64,000 nt of DNA, taken from positions 30,159-94,158 of the IMG/VR virus record IMGVR_UViG_3300032289_001637. One strand, written 5' to 3'. The notes beneath the pieces were generated by a model. That model did no database searches. It was not told the DNA's origin and saw only the letters and a list, made by a program, of their open reading frames with translations. The DNA comes from a virus. The translations under genes were made by a program, and so were the position numbers. Below are positions 4,986 through 63,941 of this stretch, piece after piece. How positions within the stretch are numbered: position 1 is the first letter of the stretch; each line of letters opens with the position of its first letter.

Positions 4986-7900
4986 TAATTTACTTCTTTC
5001 AATGTAATAGTTCCTTCTTTTGTTTCACCAAAATTAATTTTTGCTACTTTTCCAGGCTGACATTTCATATATCCAGTAGAAAACATTGTTGGGAATACCA
5101 TTACAGCAGTCATTTCTCTTGAACTATCAGCAACAATCATGTTAGCCATTCTTTTTCCAGCCTTAGTAACTCTAGGAGTAAATGATAGCACAAAGTGTTC
5201 ATCATTTGCAAATGGTATTTGCTTATAGTTTAAAAACTTTATAAGTGGATTTTCTTTATGCTCTTTTAATTCATCAATTGGAATTGCTTCAGAAATTCTA
5301 TTTGCACCTGCAAGAATTAAATAAGTTCTTCCTGGCTCAATTTTAGTCTCTTCTTCATCAAAGATTCCAATGACTCCAGTAGAGTCCATAATTTCTACTC
5401 TTGACCAGCCCTTGCCACGCTTAATATTTTTTGCAATACCAAGTAGTACAAAGACACCCTGTTCATCAAAGTCTTCTACAAGATCTATATATGCATAGTA
5501 ATGTTGTGGGACACTTGTATTTAATTCTGGAAGATTTAGATACTCATAAAGATTATCTCTAACCTTTGCCTCATCTCTTGGATTATCTTCAAATGTTAGT
5601 GCACCAATAAGATCTAACGCTTCTACTGCTCTTGAATTTATTCCACTACCTTTTTGAATAGCAAATTTTTTAAATTGATCTTTGGATTCAAAAGGTCTTC
5701 CAGCAATGATCTTATTTGCAACACCCTCAGAAAGCCATTTTATTGCAGCAAGTCCAAATCTAATACCCTTACCTTCAATTTTAAAATCTGAATCAGACTC
5801 ATTGATATGTGGAAGCTTTAGAGACAATCCCATACGCTTAGACTCAATTAAATACTCAGTACGAGTATCACTATCCTTTTCACTTTTTAACAACGAAAAC
5901 ATAAATTCAATAGGGTAGTGGTACTTTAGCCAAGCGGTCCAATAGGACAGTGTTGAGTACGCAACAGCGTGAGACTTATTAAAAGAATAACCAGCATGTG
6001 CTTCAAAATCATGCCATAAATCTTTTGCTCTAATGCCAATATGCTTTTCTGCATTGTTAACAAACTTATCTTTAAATATGTCAAACTCTTTAGCATCTTT
6101 TTTCTTACCAATAATTTTTCGAACTTTGTCAGCTTCAACCATTGTCATTCCGCCAAGAACTACACAAGCTTGCATAACTTGTTCTTGATACAAGACACAA
6201 CCATAAGTATCTTTTAGATAATCATTCATAGAAGGATGAATATATTCAACCATCTCCCTGCCGTGCTTACGGGCAATGTATGACTTTCCAATTGTATTCA
6301 TAGCACCTGGACGAACAAGAGCATTTGATGCAACAAGTTCATCAAAGTTTCCAACTCTCATTTTAACTAAAAGATTTGTATATGGAGTTGCTTCACACTG
6401 GAAAACACCCTTTGTACGCCCCTCAGAGAGCATCTCAAAGACTTTCTTGTCATTTAGGGGTATCTGCTTTAGATTTATATCTGTTCCGTGGCGTTCTTTA
6501 ATTGTTTTAATAGTCTGATCAATTACAGTAAGAGTTTTTAGACCAAGTACGTCAAGCTTAATTAGCCCAATTTCTGCAGCCTCTTCCATGTCTACTGCAA
6601 CTACTGGAATTCTTTCTTTACTTCCTGGAGCAATTCGTGTTTCAAGTGGAGCGTACCTAAATATTGAATCTTTTGCAGTAACTACACCTGCAGCATGGAT
6701 GCCAGTACCACGAATTCTTCCACGAAGTTGCTCTCCGTATTTAACAATTTCAGGATACTTCATTCTAAACCACTGAGCATTAGTTGACCTTGTAAAGTCA
6801 TCCCAACTATCTACACCTTTAAGAACTTTATTAACATCGTTAAGAGGAATATTAAATGCTCTAGCAACATCTCTTACAACACCCTTATCTTTAAATGCCA
6901 GAAACGTAGCAATAGAAGCAACATTCTTATATTCACGCTCAAGGTATGCTTTAACTTCATCTCTTCTATCGTCTGCTATATCAGAGTCAATGTCAGGAAA
7001 ATCATCTCTATCTGGATTAATAAAACGGAAAAACAGAAGACCATATTCAATCGGATCAATTTCTGTAATTCCTAATGCATAACAAACCAAAGAACCTGCT
7101 GCTGAACCACGACCTGGACCAACCATGATTCCCTGATCTTTTGCCCAGTTAAGCATATTATGAACAACCAAAAAATATGGTGAAAAGTTTTTACTTTTAA
7201 TAACATCAAGTTCTAAGTTTAATCTATCCAAATATTCTTTATTTTCAGAAAGACCTTTTAAAACTAATCCTCTAGATGCAAGTGCAAGAAGTTCTTCATT
7301 TGGATTCTCAACTTTTATTGGAAGAAGATCTAAGTTACTTTTAATAGTATATTCTTCTATCTTGTTTGCAATCTCAACAGTATTTTCATAAATATCTTCA
7401 CGCTTAATTCCCTGCTGTTGCATTGCTGATTTTATTTCTTCATAAGAAAGCAAGTGAATATCAAAACTTCTAAAAGACATCATTCTATCTTCACCATATA
7501 AATAGTCAAGTCTTTTCATAGGGTCTTCAATTTTTGATGCCTTGTCAAAAGTTGCTTCCTTATTTAACTTAGCGTGAGTATTAAGAAGAAGCATCATTTC
7601 TTGAATTACCTTTTGACTCTTGTCAGAGTGATGGCAATCAGGAGTTACAACTGGCTTTACGTCATAAATATCAGCCATCTCAAGCAATTCTTTATTTAAT
7701 TCTGCAGAATTGTGTGGCATAACCTCTACATAAAAATCGTCACCAAAGGTTTCTTTAAACCATGTCATGTGTTTTTTTGCAGCAGCATATTCTTTATACT
7801 CAATTGCTTTTGCAAGAAGTCCACTCATACATGCTGATAAAACTATTACACCCTCTTTATACTTTGATAGAATTTCAAAATCAATTCTTGGCTTTCTATA

Positions 7901-60274: not shown

Positions 60275-61762
60275 CTACAATTCCGCACTAAATCCGATAT
60301 AGCCAGAAGATGAAAGAGAAAGAACAATTCCCTCACCAATGGTAAATACTGAACTCCCATGTGTGTAAGTAATTGTTGGAATACCTATTGCTTGTAATGT
60401 AGAAGTCAAAACAGTAGTTCCTGTGTTGTATAAAGTCCCAGCCGAAGCAAATCTTGAAACAGAAAAACCTGAAGAATCAATAGATGAAGCTTGAGTTCTA
60501 AGTGAATTTACTGCAAGAACAGGAGCATTAATACCAGTTGCAGAAAACGCATATCCCGTGCCGATAAGAGATGTAGAACCATTGCCATTTAGTCTGTGGT
60601 AATACCTTCGACACAATTCTAGTTCTATACCAACATGTCTGTACTCAAAAGGGGTAGCGGTTGAACCTAGTTCTAGTTGTAAGCCTGTAACTTCAAACCA
60701 GTCATTAGCACCAGCAGTGCCAACTGGTGTTTGAAGAAGAAGAATTGATAGTGAAGACATAGTACTTGAAATAGTTGCTGTATAAGTAAAGCGTTGCCAA
60801 GAAGTAGTTAAAGTTGCTGTACTATTAAGTGCATTTGTTTGATTAGTCATACCATTACGAACAGATTCGTCAATACCAGTTCCTGTAACCAGTTGTACGG
60901 TTAAGGCGTTTGAAGCAGCTGAGTAGTTAGCTCCAGCACGAGCGTAAAAAGATAAGGAAACAGTCCTTCCTCTTAAAGCCCAAGCGTTAGCGGTCTCAAT
61001 ATGTTGAGTAAAAGCAATTGCTGCAGTGGATATATCACTTGCTATACGCTGAACACGAAGTGCGTAACGAAAATTTGCAGGAATTGTTGCGGTATCAGTA
61101 CTTTGAGACCAAGAAGCTCCTGAAGCTAACCCTGCTCGGTAAACATTCCAACGATCTGCTGTGTAAACAGTAGATGCACCAATAGCTGTAGGACTAGCTG
61201 TAGTAGGTGCACCACGTTGCCAAATATCCATTTCACCATTAATAATTAAGTTACGAAAACCTGTTTGAGCTGTTGGAACTATTGGTGCATAAGTGCTTGA
61301 GGCAGATGCTTGGGTAAGATAGGTACTTGAAGCAGAAGCCTGGGTAAGATAGGTACTTGAAGCAGATACCTGAGGAAGATAGGTACTTGAAGCAGATGCT
61401 TGGGTAAGATAGGTACTTGAAGCAGATGCCTGAGGAAGATACGTTGTTGATGCAGAAGCCTGGGTTAGGTATGTTGTTGAGGCAGATGCTCTGGTTAGAT
61501 AGTTTGTGGAAGCAGAAGCCTGGGTAAGATAGGTACTTGAAGCAGATGCCTGAGGAAGATACGTTGTAGAAGCAGAAGCCTGAGTTAGGTAAGTTGTAGA
61601 GGCAGATGCTCTGGTTAGATAGGTTGTTGATGCAGAAGCCTGGGTCAGGTAAGTTGTAGAAGCAGAAGACTGAGTAAGATATATGACTGAGGCAGATGCC
61701 TGGGTAAGTAGGGATCCTAGCTGAGATGATGAAGCTGTTCTAACAACTGTTACATTTGCCAT
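60275..61762 (-). CDS. Tail fibre with decapeptide repeats and carbohydrate-binding-like C-terminus
   Basis: A 495-aa fibre. Residues about 20-160 are 14 copies of the same 10-aa unit as the next gene. Residues about 165-390 begin RNLIINGEMDIWQRGAP, a tail-fibre domain opening I know, and run through a beta-sandwich (RTVSLSFYARAGANYSAAS) to GLQLELGSTATPFEYRHV. This C-terminal half probably binds host glycans. TATAAT lies 8 bases before the ATG; no Shine-Dalgarno. First gene of the fibre block. Confidence 0.85.
   Translation of the reverse strand: MANVTVVRTASSSQLGSLLTQASASVIYLTQSSASTTYLTQASASTTYLTRASASTTYLTQASASTTYLPQASASSTYLTQASASTNYLTRASASTTYLTQASASTTYLPQASASSTYLTQASASSTYLPQVSASSTYLTQASASSTYLTQASASSTYAPIVPTAQTGFRNLIINGEMDIWQRGAPTTASPTAIGASTVYTADRWNVYRAGLASGASWSQSTDTATIPANFRYALRVQRIASDISTAAIAFTQHIETANAWALRGRTVSLSFYARAGANYSAASNALTVQLVTGTGIDESVRNGMTNQTNALNSTATLTTSWQRFTYTATISSTMSSLSILLLQTPVGTAGANDWFEVTGLQLELGSTATPFEYRHVGIELELCRRYYHRLNGNGSTSLIGTGYAFSATGINAPVLAVNSLRTQASSIDSSGFSVSRFASAGTLYNTGTTVLTSTLQAIGIPTITYTHGSSVFTIGEGIVLSLSSSGYIGFSAEL
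61285..61720 (-). repeat. 30-bp tandem repeat array (fibre 1)
   Basis: Fourteen 30-bp units like those in the neighbouring gene, with small differences (TTY, STY, LPQ, LTR). Confidence 0.9.
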
Positions 61763-61770
61763 AATGATTA

Positions 61771-61776
61771 ATTATA
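61771..61776 (-). promoter_or_regulatory. -10 box of leaderless promoter (fibre 1)
   Basis: TATAAT on the minus strand, 8 bases before the ATG at 61762. Context matches the box before the fibre 2 gene base for base except one. Confidence 0.5.
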
Positions 61777-62066
61777 CCATTTTAAAAAATTCGCAAAAAA
61801 TCCGCAAATTAAAAACGCAAAAATCGGCAAAATAGTATAACCCACCCCCTTATATAAATATACAGCTACGCTGTTCTTTGTTATATATGGAGGATTTTTT
61901 GGGGGTTTGAATTATTATATAAATATGCAGATATTCCCTATATGAAGAATATGCCAGATATGTCTATATTGTCAACATGTTAATAAGAATAAAGGATGCT
62001 AACGCATATGACCAGAAATGAATTTAATTAACCCCGAAAATATACAAAAATAGATGTTTTTATTTA

Positions 62067-62147
62067 TTAACTGCCAGATAGTGTAGACATTAAAATTGCT
62101 ACTATTATAATCCAGAAGATGTATCTATAGTATTCTTTATTACTCAT
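62067..62147 (-). CDS. Possible 26-aa membrane peptide
   Basis: A 26-aa frame, MSNKEYY then a single hydrophobic run (IFWIIIVAILM), ending STLSGS. A GAGAAACAC lies just upstream of the ATG. Too short for a statistical case, but charged start plus one membrane span is typical of small phage peptides. Confidence 0.35.
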   Translation of the reverse strand: MSNKEYYRYIFWIIIVAILMSTLSGS

Positions 62148-62346
62148 GTGTTTCTCTTTCTTTTAATAATTTCATTCCCCTGCCCCCCGAATTTTCTAAA
62201 ACTTTTTTGATTCGCTGCACTCATAGTGTAATTGCATTTTTTATACTTGTCAAGTTGAGCTGCCAGAAACATTGAACTATTGAATTATTTGTAACACAAT
62301 TGTAACATATCATCTCACATATTGAGATATATATTCATTACCCCGC

Positions 62347-62407
62347 AAAATCTGAATATTTTTATTTTTGCAGCTAGATCCCATTTTGAAGAAAATCTGA
62401 ATATTTT
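62347..62407. repeat. 16-bp direct repeat pair
   Basis: AAAATCTGAATATTTT at 62347-62362 and again at 62392-62407, 45 bp apart, in non-coding DNA. Possible protein binding site. Confidence 0.8.
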
Positions 62408-62439
62408 GTTAATGTGTATGATGCGTAAAAATAGAAAAA

Positions 62440-62461
62440 GCTCACCTTTTTATTAGTGAGC
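62440..62461 (-). terminator. Intrinsic terminator of small-gene cluster
   Basis: Minus strand stem GCTCAC / GTGAGC with a 10-base loop, followed by TTTTTCTATTTTT. It directly follows the stop at 62470. Confidence 0.85.
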
Positions 62462-62469
62462 CCATCTGG

Positions 62470-62655
62470 TTAGATAATTTGAAAGTCTTCTACCTCTTGG
62501 CAGTTCAAACAATTTTCTAAGTCTTCACAATAGCAACCGTGAAATTCTCCTGCACAGTCTTGACAATAGAGAACACTAGTTGACTTTTTATTTTTAGAAT
62601 TGAAAGCCTTTCCAATTCGATGTCCTGGATGTTCTAAAGTTATAGAATTAATCAT
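62470..62655 (-). CDS. Small zinc-binding protein (61 aa)
   Basis: A 61-aa protein with YCQDCAGEFHGCYCEDLEN in the middle and CLNCQEV near the end: seven Cys, several as C-x2-C or C-x-C. AGAGGGGTAAGAA gives a good ribosome site. Its stop lies just before an intrinsic terminator. Early small protein, function unknown. Confidence 0.7.
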   Translation of the reverse strand: MINSITLEHPGHRIGKAFNSKNKKSTSVLYCQDCAGEFHGCYCEDLENCLNCQEVEDFQII

Positions 62656-62658
62656 TTC

Positions 62659-62847
62659 TTACCCCTCTAACATTTCGCAAATACCTGCACCAATGGCAGA
62701 TAGTAAACCGATAACGGCTGTCGCTATCATCACATTGGCAGACATAAAGTCAAAGCCAATAACTAGTAATTGTAATTCTAGTAGTAGTGCAGGTAATGAG
62801 AATACCGCAATGAATACAAGTGGTGCAATAAGGTTGTAGATAAACAT
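62659..62847 (-). CDS. Small membrane protein (62 aa)
   Basis: A 62-aa hydrophobic protein with two membrane spans (LIAPLVFIAVFSLPALLLEL and VMIATAVIGLLSAIGAGI) and few charges. AGAGG lies about 11 bases before the ATG. Sits between two Cys-rich genes in the leftward early cluster. Function unknown. Confidence 0.6.
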   Translation of the reverse strand: MFIYNLIAPLVFIAVFSLPALLLELQLLVIGFDFMSANVMIATAVIGLLSAIGAGICEMLEG

Positions 62848-62850
62848 AAT

Positions 62851-62982
62851 TTAGAATTCCTCTGTTAGTTCGTAGGAGTCAGGTTCGCAGATAATGCAAT
62901 ACACATTTTCCCAAGGGGTTAGTTTGTCTCCACATTCAACACACTTGGTTTTAGTAATGTTCTCGTATGCTAGTTCAGTCAT
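62851..62982 (-). CDS. Small zinc-finger protein (43 aa)
   Basis: A 43-aa protein with C-x2-C twice (KCVECGDK and YCIICEPD), a compact zinc ribbon. GGAAGTCAAA before the ATG and a leader identical in part (ACAAACGAAAGG) to those of the rightward genes. It is the first leftward gene next to the probable origin; the promoter-like element at 63015-63037 precedes it. Confidence 0.75.
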   Translation of the reverse strand: MTELAYENITKTKCVECGDKLTPWENVYCIICEPDSYELTEEF

Positions 62983-63014: not shown

Positions 63015-63037
63015 AACTTAGCAGATACCACCGACAA
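63015..63037 (-). promoter_or_regulatory. Promoter-like element, leftward
   Basis: Minus strand TTGTCG, 11 bases ending TCTGC, TAAGTT: same spacing and same TCTGC core as the rightward copies. Upstream of the 43-aa gene. Confidence 0.6.
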
Positions 63038-63276
63038 AATCAAGCCAGAAACGCCTTTTTGAGATGAATAGTTAGTGAACAATAACTCACAGGTTATCCA
63101 CAGGATCCAGGCTGCGCCCCGTTTTCCACAGGTTATCCACAGCCTGTTAAGAAGTTGTTAATAAGTCCCCATTTTCTATGTATAAGTTGTGTATAACTAC
63201 TATGATTTATGTGTATAAGTTGTGAATTAATTGTTCATCTATTGTTCATTTAACTACCCCCCTAAATGGGGCAAAA

Positions 63277-63299
63277 TTGTCAGACCCCTCTGCTAAGAT
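63277..63299 (+). promoter_or_regulatory. Promoter-like element, rightward copy 1
   Basis: TTGTCA, 11 bases (GACCCCTCTGC), TAAGAT. The -10-like box is joined to an extended TGC. It drives the first rightward gene. Confidence 0.7.
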
Positions 63300-63393: not shown

Positions 63394-63543
63394 ATGGCTT
63401 TCACTAAAATCAAAAATGCAAGACTGCTACTAGATGCAGTAAAGGGTTTGGAATACTATGAAAAGCAGTATCCACTAAACGAGTTAATGATTGCTTACTA
63501 CAAAAAGCAGGTTGAGGAATTAACTAAACGAGTCTACGGTTAA
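63394..63543 (+). CDS. Small basic protein (49 aa)
   Basis: A 49-aa helical, basic protein (FTKIKNARLLLDAVKGL, ending KKQVEELTKRVYG). AAAGGGAAACCGAA gives a fair ribosome site. It is the first gene transcribed right of the origin. No family recognised; small basic early proteins often bind host enzymes or DNA. Confidence 0.65.
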   Translation: MAFTKIKNARLLLDAVKGLEYYEKQYPLNELMIAYYKKQVEELTKRVYG

Positions 63544-63546
63544 AAA

Positions 63547-63569
63547 CTGTCAGACCCTTATGCTAAGAT
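63547..63569 (+). promoter_or_regulatory. Promoter-like element, rightward copy 2
   Basis: CTGTCA, 11 bases (GACCCTTATGC), TAAGAT. Precedes the 68-aa gene by about 35 bases. Confidence 0.7.
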
Positions 63570-63603
63570 AAAACTACTAAACAAAAAAAGAAAGAGGTCA
63601 CAA

Positions 63604-63810
63604 ATGACTTACTCAGATGTAATGGAATTAGTAACTACCCCAATGGGTAACACATTCTACAACACCATTCGCTACTATGACGAATGTGAGATTTGCCAAT
63701 CTGCTATGGCTAAAGGTGAGATGCCTTTCATCTCTCACGAGAATTGCTTATACAAGGGCAAGCGTATCGGACACTCATTTGGTCATTGTACCGCTGGGAG
63801 TTGCTACTAA
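63604..63810 (+). CDS. Small Cys/His-rich protein (68 aa)
   Basis: A 68-aa protein with CEICQSAM (C-x2-C) in the middle, ISHENCLYKG, and a C-terminal HSFGHCTAGSCY. Enough Cys/His for one or two zinc sites. AAAGAGGTCACAA before the ATG. Stop overlaps the next start (TAATG), so the two are coupled. Function unknown. Confidence 0.65.
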   Translation: MTYSDVMELVTTPMGNTFYNTIRYYDECEICQSAMAKGEMPFISHENCLYKGKRIGHSFGHCTAGSCY

Positions 63811-63941
63811 TGAACATTTGCCAAAACTGTGATGAATGGTCAGAATGGAAATCCTGCCCTGCCTGTGATGAATCTATCTGTGGCTATTGTGTCTACTATG
63901 TAGAGCAAGACCTAGCCAACTGTGACCGATACGGTCACTAA
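63810..63941 (+). CDS. Small zinc-finger protein (43 aa)
   Basis: A 43-aa protein with three C-x2-C pairs (ICQNCDE, SCPACDE, ICGYCVY). Start ATG at 63810 overlaps the previous stop and has GGGAG upstream; a longer frame from 63744 is open but unlikely. Resembles a zinc ribbon or B-box-like small protein. Function unknown. Confidence 0.65.
   Translation: MNICQNCDEWSEWKSCPACDESICGYCVYYVEQDLANCDRYGH

Follow-up and report, generated by a model that had tools for sequence, protein, structure and literature searches.

In phage lambda, host DnaA stimulates the early promoter pR, and transcription activates ori-lambda (PMC3985674, PMC7466680). At chromosomal origins of the E. coli type, DnaA recognizes clusters of weak sites separated by 2-bp gaps and arranged as two opposed arrays (PMC6070618, PMC4285127). 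Here we describe a locus with features of both systems in a freshwater phage that probably infects actinobacteria. A sequence scan placed an array of strong and weak DnaA boxes at 63083-63229 of the window, the 64-kb stretch of DNA analyzed here, which comprises bases 30159-94158 of a 94,158-bp IMG/VR contig from a genome that is larger than the window. Judging from the sequence, the phage probably uses host DnaA for early-gene control and possibly for its own replication start.

The best matches of the DnaE-type polymerase, the DUF932 protein and the major capsid protein are in Streptomyces phages of the Stanwilliamsviridae (51, 53 and 40% identity, respectively; about 40-54% overall), which suggests a distant relationship to this family. 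Replication and recombination are represented by the DnaE polymerase, a DnaB-like helicase, a primase, a UvsX-like recombinase, a Cas4-like exonuclease and a RuvC-like resolvase. No match to the DnaA domains PF00308 and PF08299 was found in the phage or in 27 other viral contigs, and a phage-encoded DnaA was rejected on this basis for the 28 viral records. On the minus strand of the phage contig, L005:16580-17515 weakly matches the tubulin-like PhuZ family (E=2.7e-6).

The initial annotation had described two TTATCCACA boxes and one TTTTCCACA box within 48 bp, followed by AT-rich direct repeats. This box cluster is confirmed, with all three boxes on the plus strand, and the repeats are present as well. 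Each repeat holds one minus-strand TTATACACA box; these boxes were absent from the annotation and bring the strict boxes of the cluster to five. Putative weak boxes, defined as 9-mers with at least six of nine matches, each lie 11 bp from a neighbor, and the boxes as a whole form two arrays that face each other:

63076-63081, plus strand: TGAACA, single copy
63083-63091, plus strand: putative weak box TAACTCACA (6/9), followed after 11 bp by the first strong box
63094-63102, plus strand: strong DnaA box TTATCCACA, sequence match
63122-63130, plus strand: DnaA box TTTTCCACA, sequence match
63133-63141, plus strand: strong DnaA box TTATCCACA, 11 bp after the preceding box
63145-63153, minus strand: putative weak box TTCTTAACA (6/9), 11 bp from the next weak box
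63156-63164, minus strand: putative weak box TTATTAACA (7/9), from the 9-mer match count
63173-63227, plus strand: AT-rich direct repeats 63173-63194 and 63206-63227, 86% alike
63177-63185, minus strand: putative weak box TTATACATA (7/9), sharing the phase of the strict minus-strand boxes
63188-63196, minus strand: DnaA box TTATACACA, sequence match
63210-63218, minus strand: DnaA box TTATACACA, 22 bp from the preceding TTATACACA
63221-63229, minus strand: putative weak box TAATTCACA (7/9), in phase
63230-63249, minus strand: TGAACA twice, 11 bp apart, extending the box phase

The three clustered boxes are the only copies of TTWTCCACA in the window; a further copy in the 94-kb contig falls within an ORF. 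When the window was Markov-shuffled, the mean was 2.07 boxes, and 0/300 shuffles had three within 60 bp, for which the expected number of triples is 2.5e-6; the density is indeed unlikely to have arisen by chance, as had been proposed. The TGAACA element occurs at 7/59 box-bearing promoters vs 1/145 of those without boxes.

The units flanking the array are divergent, as the initial annotation had it, and the one on the left is a short operon of early type rather than the late gene block. Early promoters flank the array on both sides and point outward, and the genes run away from it in both directions:

62438-62463, minus strand: terminator-like hairpin closing the leftward operon, from sequence
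62470-62982, minus strand: short leftward operon with three small ORFs of 43, 62 and 61 aa, from ORF calls
63015-63036, minus strand: putative leftward early promoter TGTCGG-N10-TAAGTT, 57 bp from the nearest box
63278-63299, plus strand: putative rightward early promoter TGTCAG-N10-TAAGAT, with the nearest strict box 59 bp away
63394-63941, plus strand: first rightward early ORFs (49, 68 and 43 aa), from ORF calls

Besides the copy at 63278, the promoter motif recurs on the rightward side of the window at 63548 and 63946, and at 1164, 1958, 2650 and 5241 of the contig. Between the leftward small operon and a tail-fibre gene there is an AT-rich stretch of ~0.7 kb (61763-62437) that lacks convincing genes and contains the perfect repeat AAAATCTGAATATTTT. 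The N-terminal part of the tail-fibre-like protein (60275-61762) consists of short repeats of the ASASTTYLTQ type.

The early-gene motif, defined only by its recurrence and position, reads TGTCAGACC-N7-TAnGnT, in which 10 bp separate TGTCAG from TAnnnT. A logo was built from 154 copies of this motif in relatives, and no sigma70-type -35 at normal spacing is evident at it. Our first pattern, which had 11-16 bp between the two elements, gave no signal. The regular expression was altered after viewing sequences and widened to TGTCGG after viewing the left promoter of the window. With this widened expression, TTATCCACA occurs within 150 bp upstream at 40/180 non-redundant early promoters (shuffled 9-mers, mean 0.15). 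The nearest box lies 40-90 bp upstream in 32/39, compared with 9.7 +/- 2.6 for random placement in the same intergenic gaps; the 40-90 bp range was set after earlier distances from much the same loci, and this result is a description with a null rather than an independent confirmation. The same expression finds an outward promoter within 150 bp of 19/31 non-redundant multi-box clusters (background 6%) and an inward one within that distance of 0/31. DnaA boxes are thus found at a defined position beside motif-inferred early promoters. Within 150 bp, strict boxes are upstream at 58/203 promoters and downstream at 0, in part because coding sequence follows downstream. Most early promoters in the phage family have no boxes, and some clusters of relatives have no early promoter.

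No clear helical phasing was seen in the distance from box to promoter, which argues against a rigid contact between DnaA and polymerase. We also considered that the gap separating boxes from promoter might be a low-GC unwinding element and rejected this, as the GC content of the gap is no lower than at promoters without boxes. CRP-like palindromes were rejected as partners of the boxes because they are at least as frequent at box-free promoters. Such CRP/GlxR-like palindromes (GTGA-N6-TCAC), together with a GGCGTGTC motif, occur near early promoters of relatives with or without boxes (L150:4115, L159:3864, L161:254 and others).

A search with the DUF932 protein recovered 51 loci, 38 of which carry two or more boxes within 200 bp; several of the remainder end too early upstream. 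Across 24 contigs of relatives, a count that excludes three contigs picked by their boxes, there are 150 perfect boxes vs 23 matches to the reversed pattern, and most boxes in the examined loci fall outside ORFs of at least 80 aa. In 41 non-redundant clusters, neighboring boxes on the same strand are mostly 11, 12, 22, 33 or 44 bp apart. The 11-bp period is strong (R=0.79, p=1e-13) and persists when the closest spacings are left out (p=1.7e-5); boxes on opposite strands are convergent in 16 vs 1 cases and phased (p=8e-7), where all p values assume independence and are weakened by shared descent. Relatives carry several box clusters per genome, and the window's contig carries one such cluster. 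When the region was compared with isolated phages by blastn, only short matches were obtained, over the box stretch. In phages of Microbacterium, Proteus, Lactococcus and Synechococcus (L258, L259, L260 and L261) such matches lie outside annotated genes, and DnaA-box clusters may, on this sequence resemblance, be more widespread in phages.

A second kind of cluster occurs in relatives ~4.5-5.3 kb downstream of the DUF932 start (L146:14846, L147:8841, L148:6450, L157:14592, L171:14521, L175:14453, L177:4917 and L179:6733). Phased boxes are followed by TTACTGAT and an AT-rich stretch, then by GTGGAG repeats and GGATCGTAAT, and the whole resembles the sequence at the start of the terminal repeat of Streptomyces phage Karimac. 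At the homologous site in the phage's own contig (L005:6680-6790) the boxes are lost. In two isolated Streptomyces phages, perfect boxes flank the right terminal direct repeat, 50-95 bp outside its start, at L185:3952 (Samisti12 122951-122995) and L187:4228 (Karimac 119227-119259); the cumulative skew of Karimac peaks ~120 bp from these boxes.

The boxes had initially been called host-type, and a comparison with probable hosts bears this out. We used 20 small actinomycete genomes (GC 0.40-0.50, most ~1.2-1.5 Mb), which are consistent with Nanopelagicales. The 1.2 kb after dnaA in these genomes contains 27 copies of TTATCCACA, 7 of TTGTCCACA, 6 of TTTTCCACA and 2 of TTATACACA. The phages use the same variants as the oriC of these small low-GC actinomycetes, which are likely the host group. 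Given this match of box types, the recurrence of clusters in relatives and the 28 viral records that lack a DnaA domain, the reading of these sites as host-type DnaA boxes is well supported.

At about even confidence, we interpret the array as a host-DnaA binding platform common to the two divergent early promoters. Host DnaA would occupy the strong boxes and spread across the in-phase weak boxes, giving two converging oligomers. These could adjust both early promoters, the leftward one at 63036 and the rightward one at 63278, with TGTC(A/G)G elements that are 57 and 59 bp beyond the outermost strict boxes, with stimulation more plausible than repression; early expression would then track host replication and growth state. 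The sequence itself supplies phased and convergent boxes, their geometry relative to the promoters, the recurrence in relatives and the lack of a detectable phage DnaA gene, from which DnaA binding and its action on transcription are inferred. The variants TTATCCACA, TTTTCCACA and TTATACACA, joined in relatives by TTGTCCACA, match the host oriC set, the 2-bp gaps between 9-mers at 11-bp spacing are those of weak-site clusters in E. coli oriC (PMC6070618), and the phages have no DnaA-like domain. All of this makes it improbable that the boxes are instead operators for a phage regulator reading DnaA-box-like sequences, even though promoter-linked operator arrays are common and most early proteins are of unknown function. 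Titration of host DnaA by the array was another early suggestion and would shut down initiation of host replication. The surplus of perfect boxes in relatives would suit it, and a few sites could count at high phage copy number, but the window's cluster has only five strict boxes, and titration alone requires neither phasing nor convergence and leaves the fixed promoter geometry unexplained; we regard it as very unlikely.

The replication origin proposed in the initial annotation ranks next after the promoter platform, as a possible but tentative reading. Host DnaA on the two converging arrays would open the AT-rich right half, after which the phage's DnaB-like helicase, primase and DnaE polymerase would be loaded, with the early promoters supplying transcriptional activation. 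As at oriC, strong boxes cluster beyond chance, and the phased, convergent strong and weak boxes could permit DnaA oligomers. The phage encodes helicase, primase and polymerase and has no recognized initiator, positions 63200-63260 are among the least stable 10% of the window, genes diverge from the array, and the contig carries this one cluster only. Against a plain single origin, the several clusters per genome in relatives are mostly tied to promoters, the GC content between box and promoter is not reduced, and the phage may possess an unrecognized initiator of its own. Host oriC carries the DnaA-trio TTACTACTACTACC beside an AT stretch; we looked for a similar conserved trio in the phage array and found none comparable, and one relative (L133) lacks the 44-bp block that contains the two strict minus-strand boxes. 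The skew switch expected at an origin was sought by computing GC skew for seven genomes. On the contig of the window, the cumulative curve has its minimum 4.8 kb from the array, at position 88,425, and peaks at 6,375, a point of converging transcription. In relatives, the minimum is ~0.4-1.3 kb from the three clusters of G001, in favor of an origin, but far off in G002 and G004. As skew follows gene direction, it speaks neither for nor against an origin, and we set it aside as a decisive test. Of the original proposal, the host-DnaA part is well supported and the origin part is possible.

Control of divergent early promoters fits the observations better than a plain origin, since it explains the fixed distances and multiple copies; the origin accounts for phasing of the oriC type and for why no initiator is recognizable. 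The two are compatible, as in lambda, and the array may also help start replication. A bolder and rather doubtful extension is that phased arrays serve at once as shared early-promoter elements and phage origins in a widespread group of freshwater actinophages, coupling the timing of infection to the host cell cycle.

If DnaA binding holds true, these phages offer a testable case of phages reading the replication state of their hosts, which probably belong to an abundant group of freshwater bacteria. More generally, perfect DnaA boxes in a phage call for a check of promoter context before an origin is assigned. The action of DnaA at a lambda early promoter is known; we found nothing in the open-access literature on DnaA boxes at actinophage promoters or origins, or on phased arrays that keep a fixed distance to early promoters throughout a phage family. 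Relative to bacterial oriC, the array shares strong boxes, weak boxes at 11-bp spacing and two opposed arrays, but it has no dnaA or dnaN neighbors and no recognized DnaA-trio or defined unwinding element, is linked to promoters and occurs several times per genome in relatives. The Stanwilliamsviridae (Samisti12, Karimac, BillNye) have related core proteins and TTATCCACA clusters too, although in Samisti12 and Karimac the clusters are positioned like the terminus-side ones of the freshwater relatives and unlike the promoter-side array described here. The locus resembles lambda in that sites for host DnaA occur in an early promoter region and that early transcription may be linked to replication. 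Lambda relies on an initiator of its own, O, whereas none is recognized in the present phage. Here, in contrast to lambda, the boxes are perfect and phased, lie 40-90 bp upstream of another class of promoter and between two divergent copies of it, and are found again at many promoters throughout the phage family.
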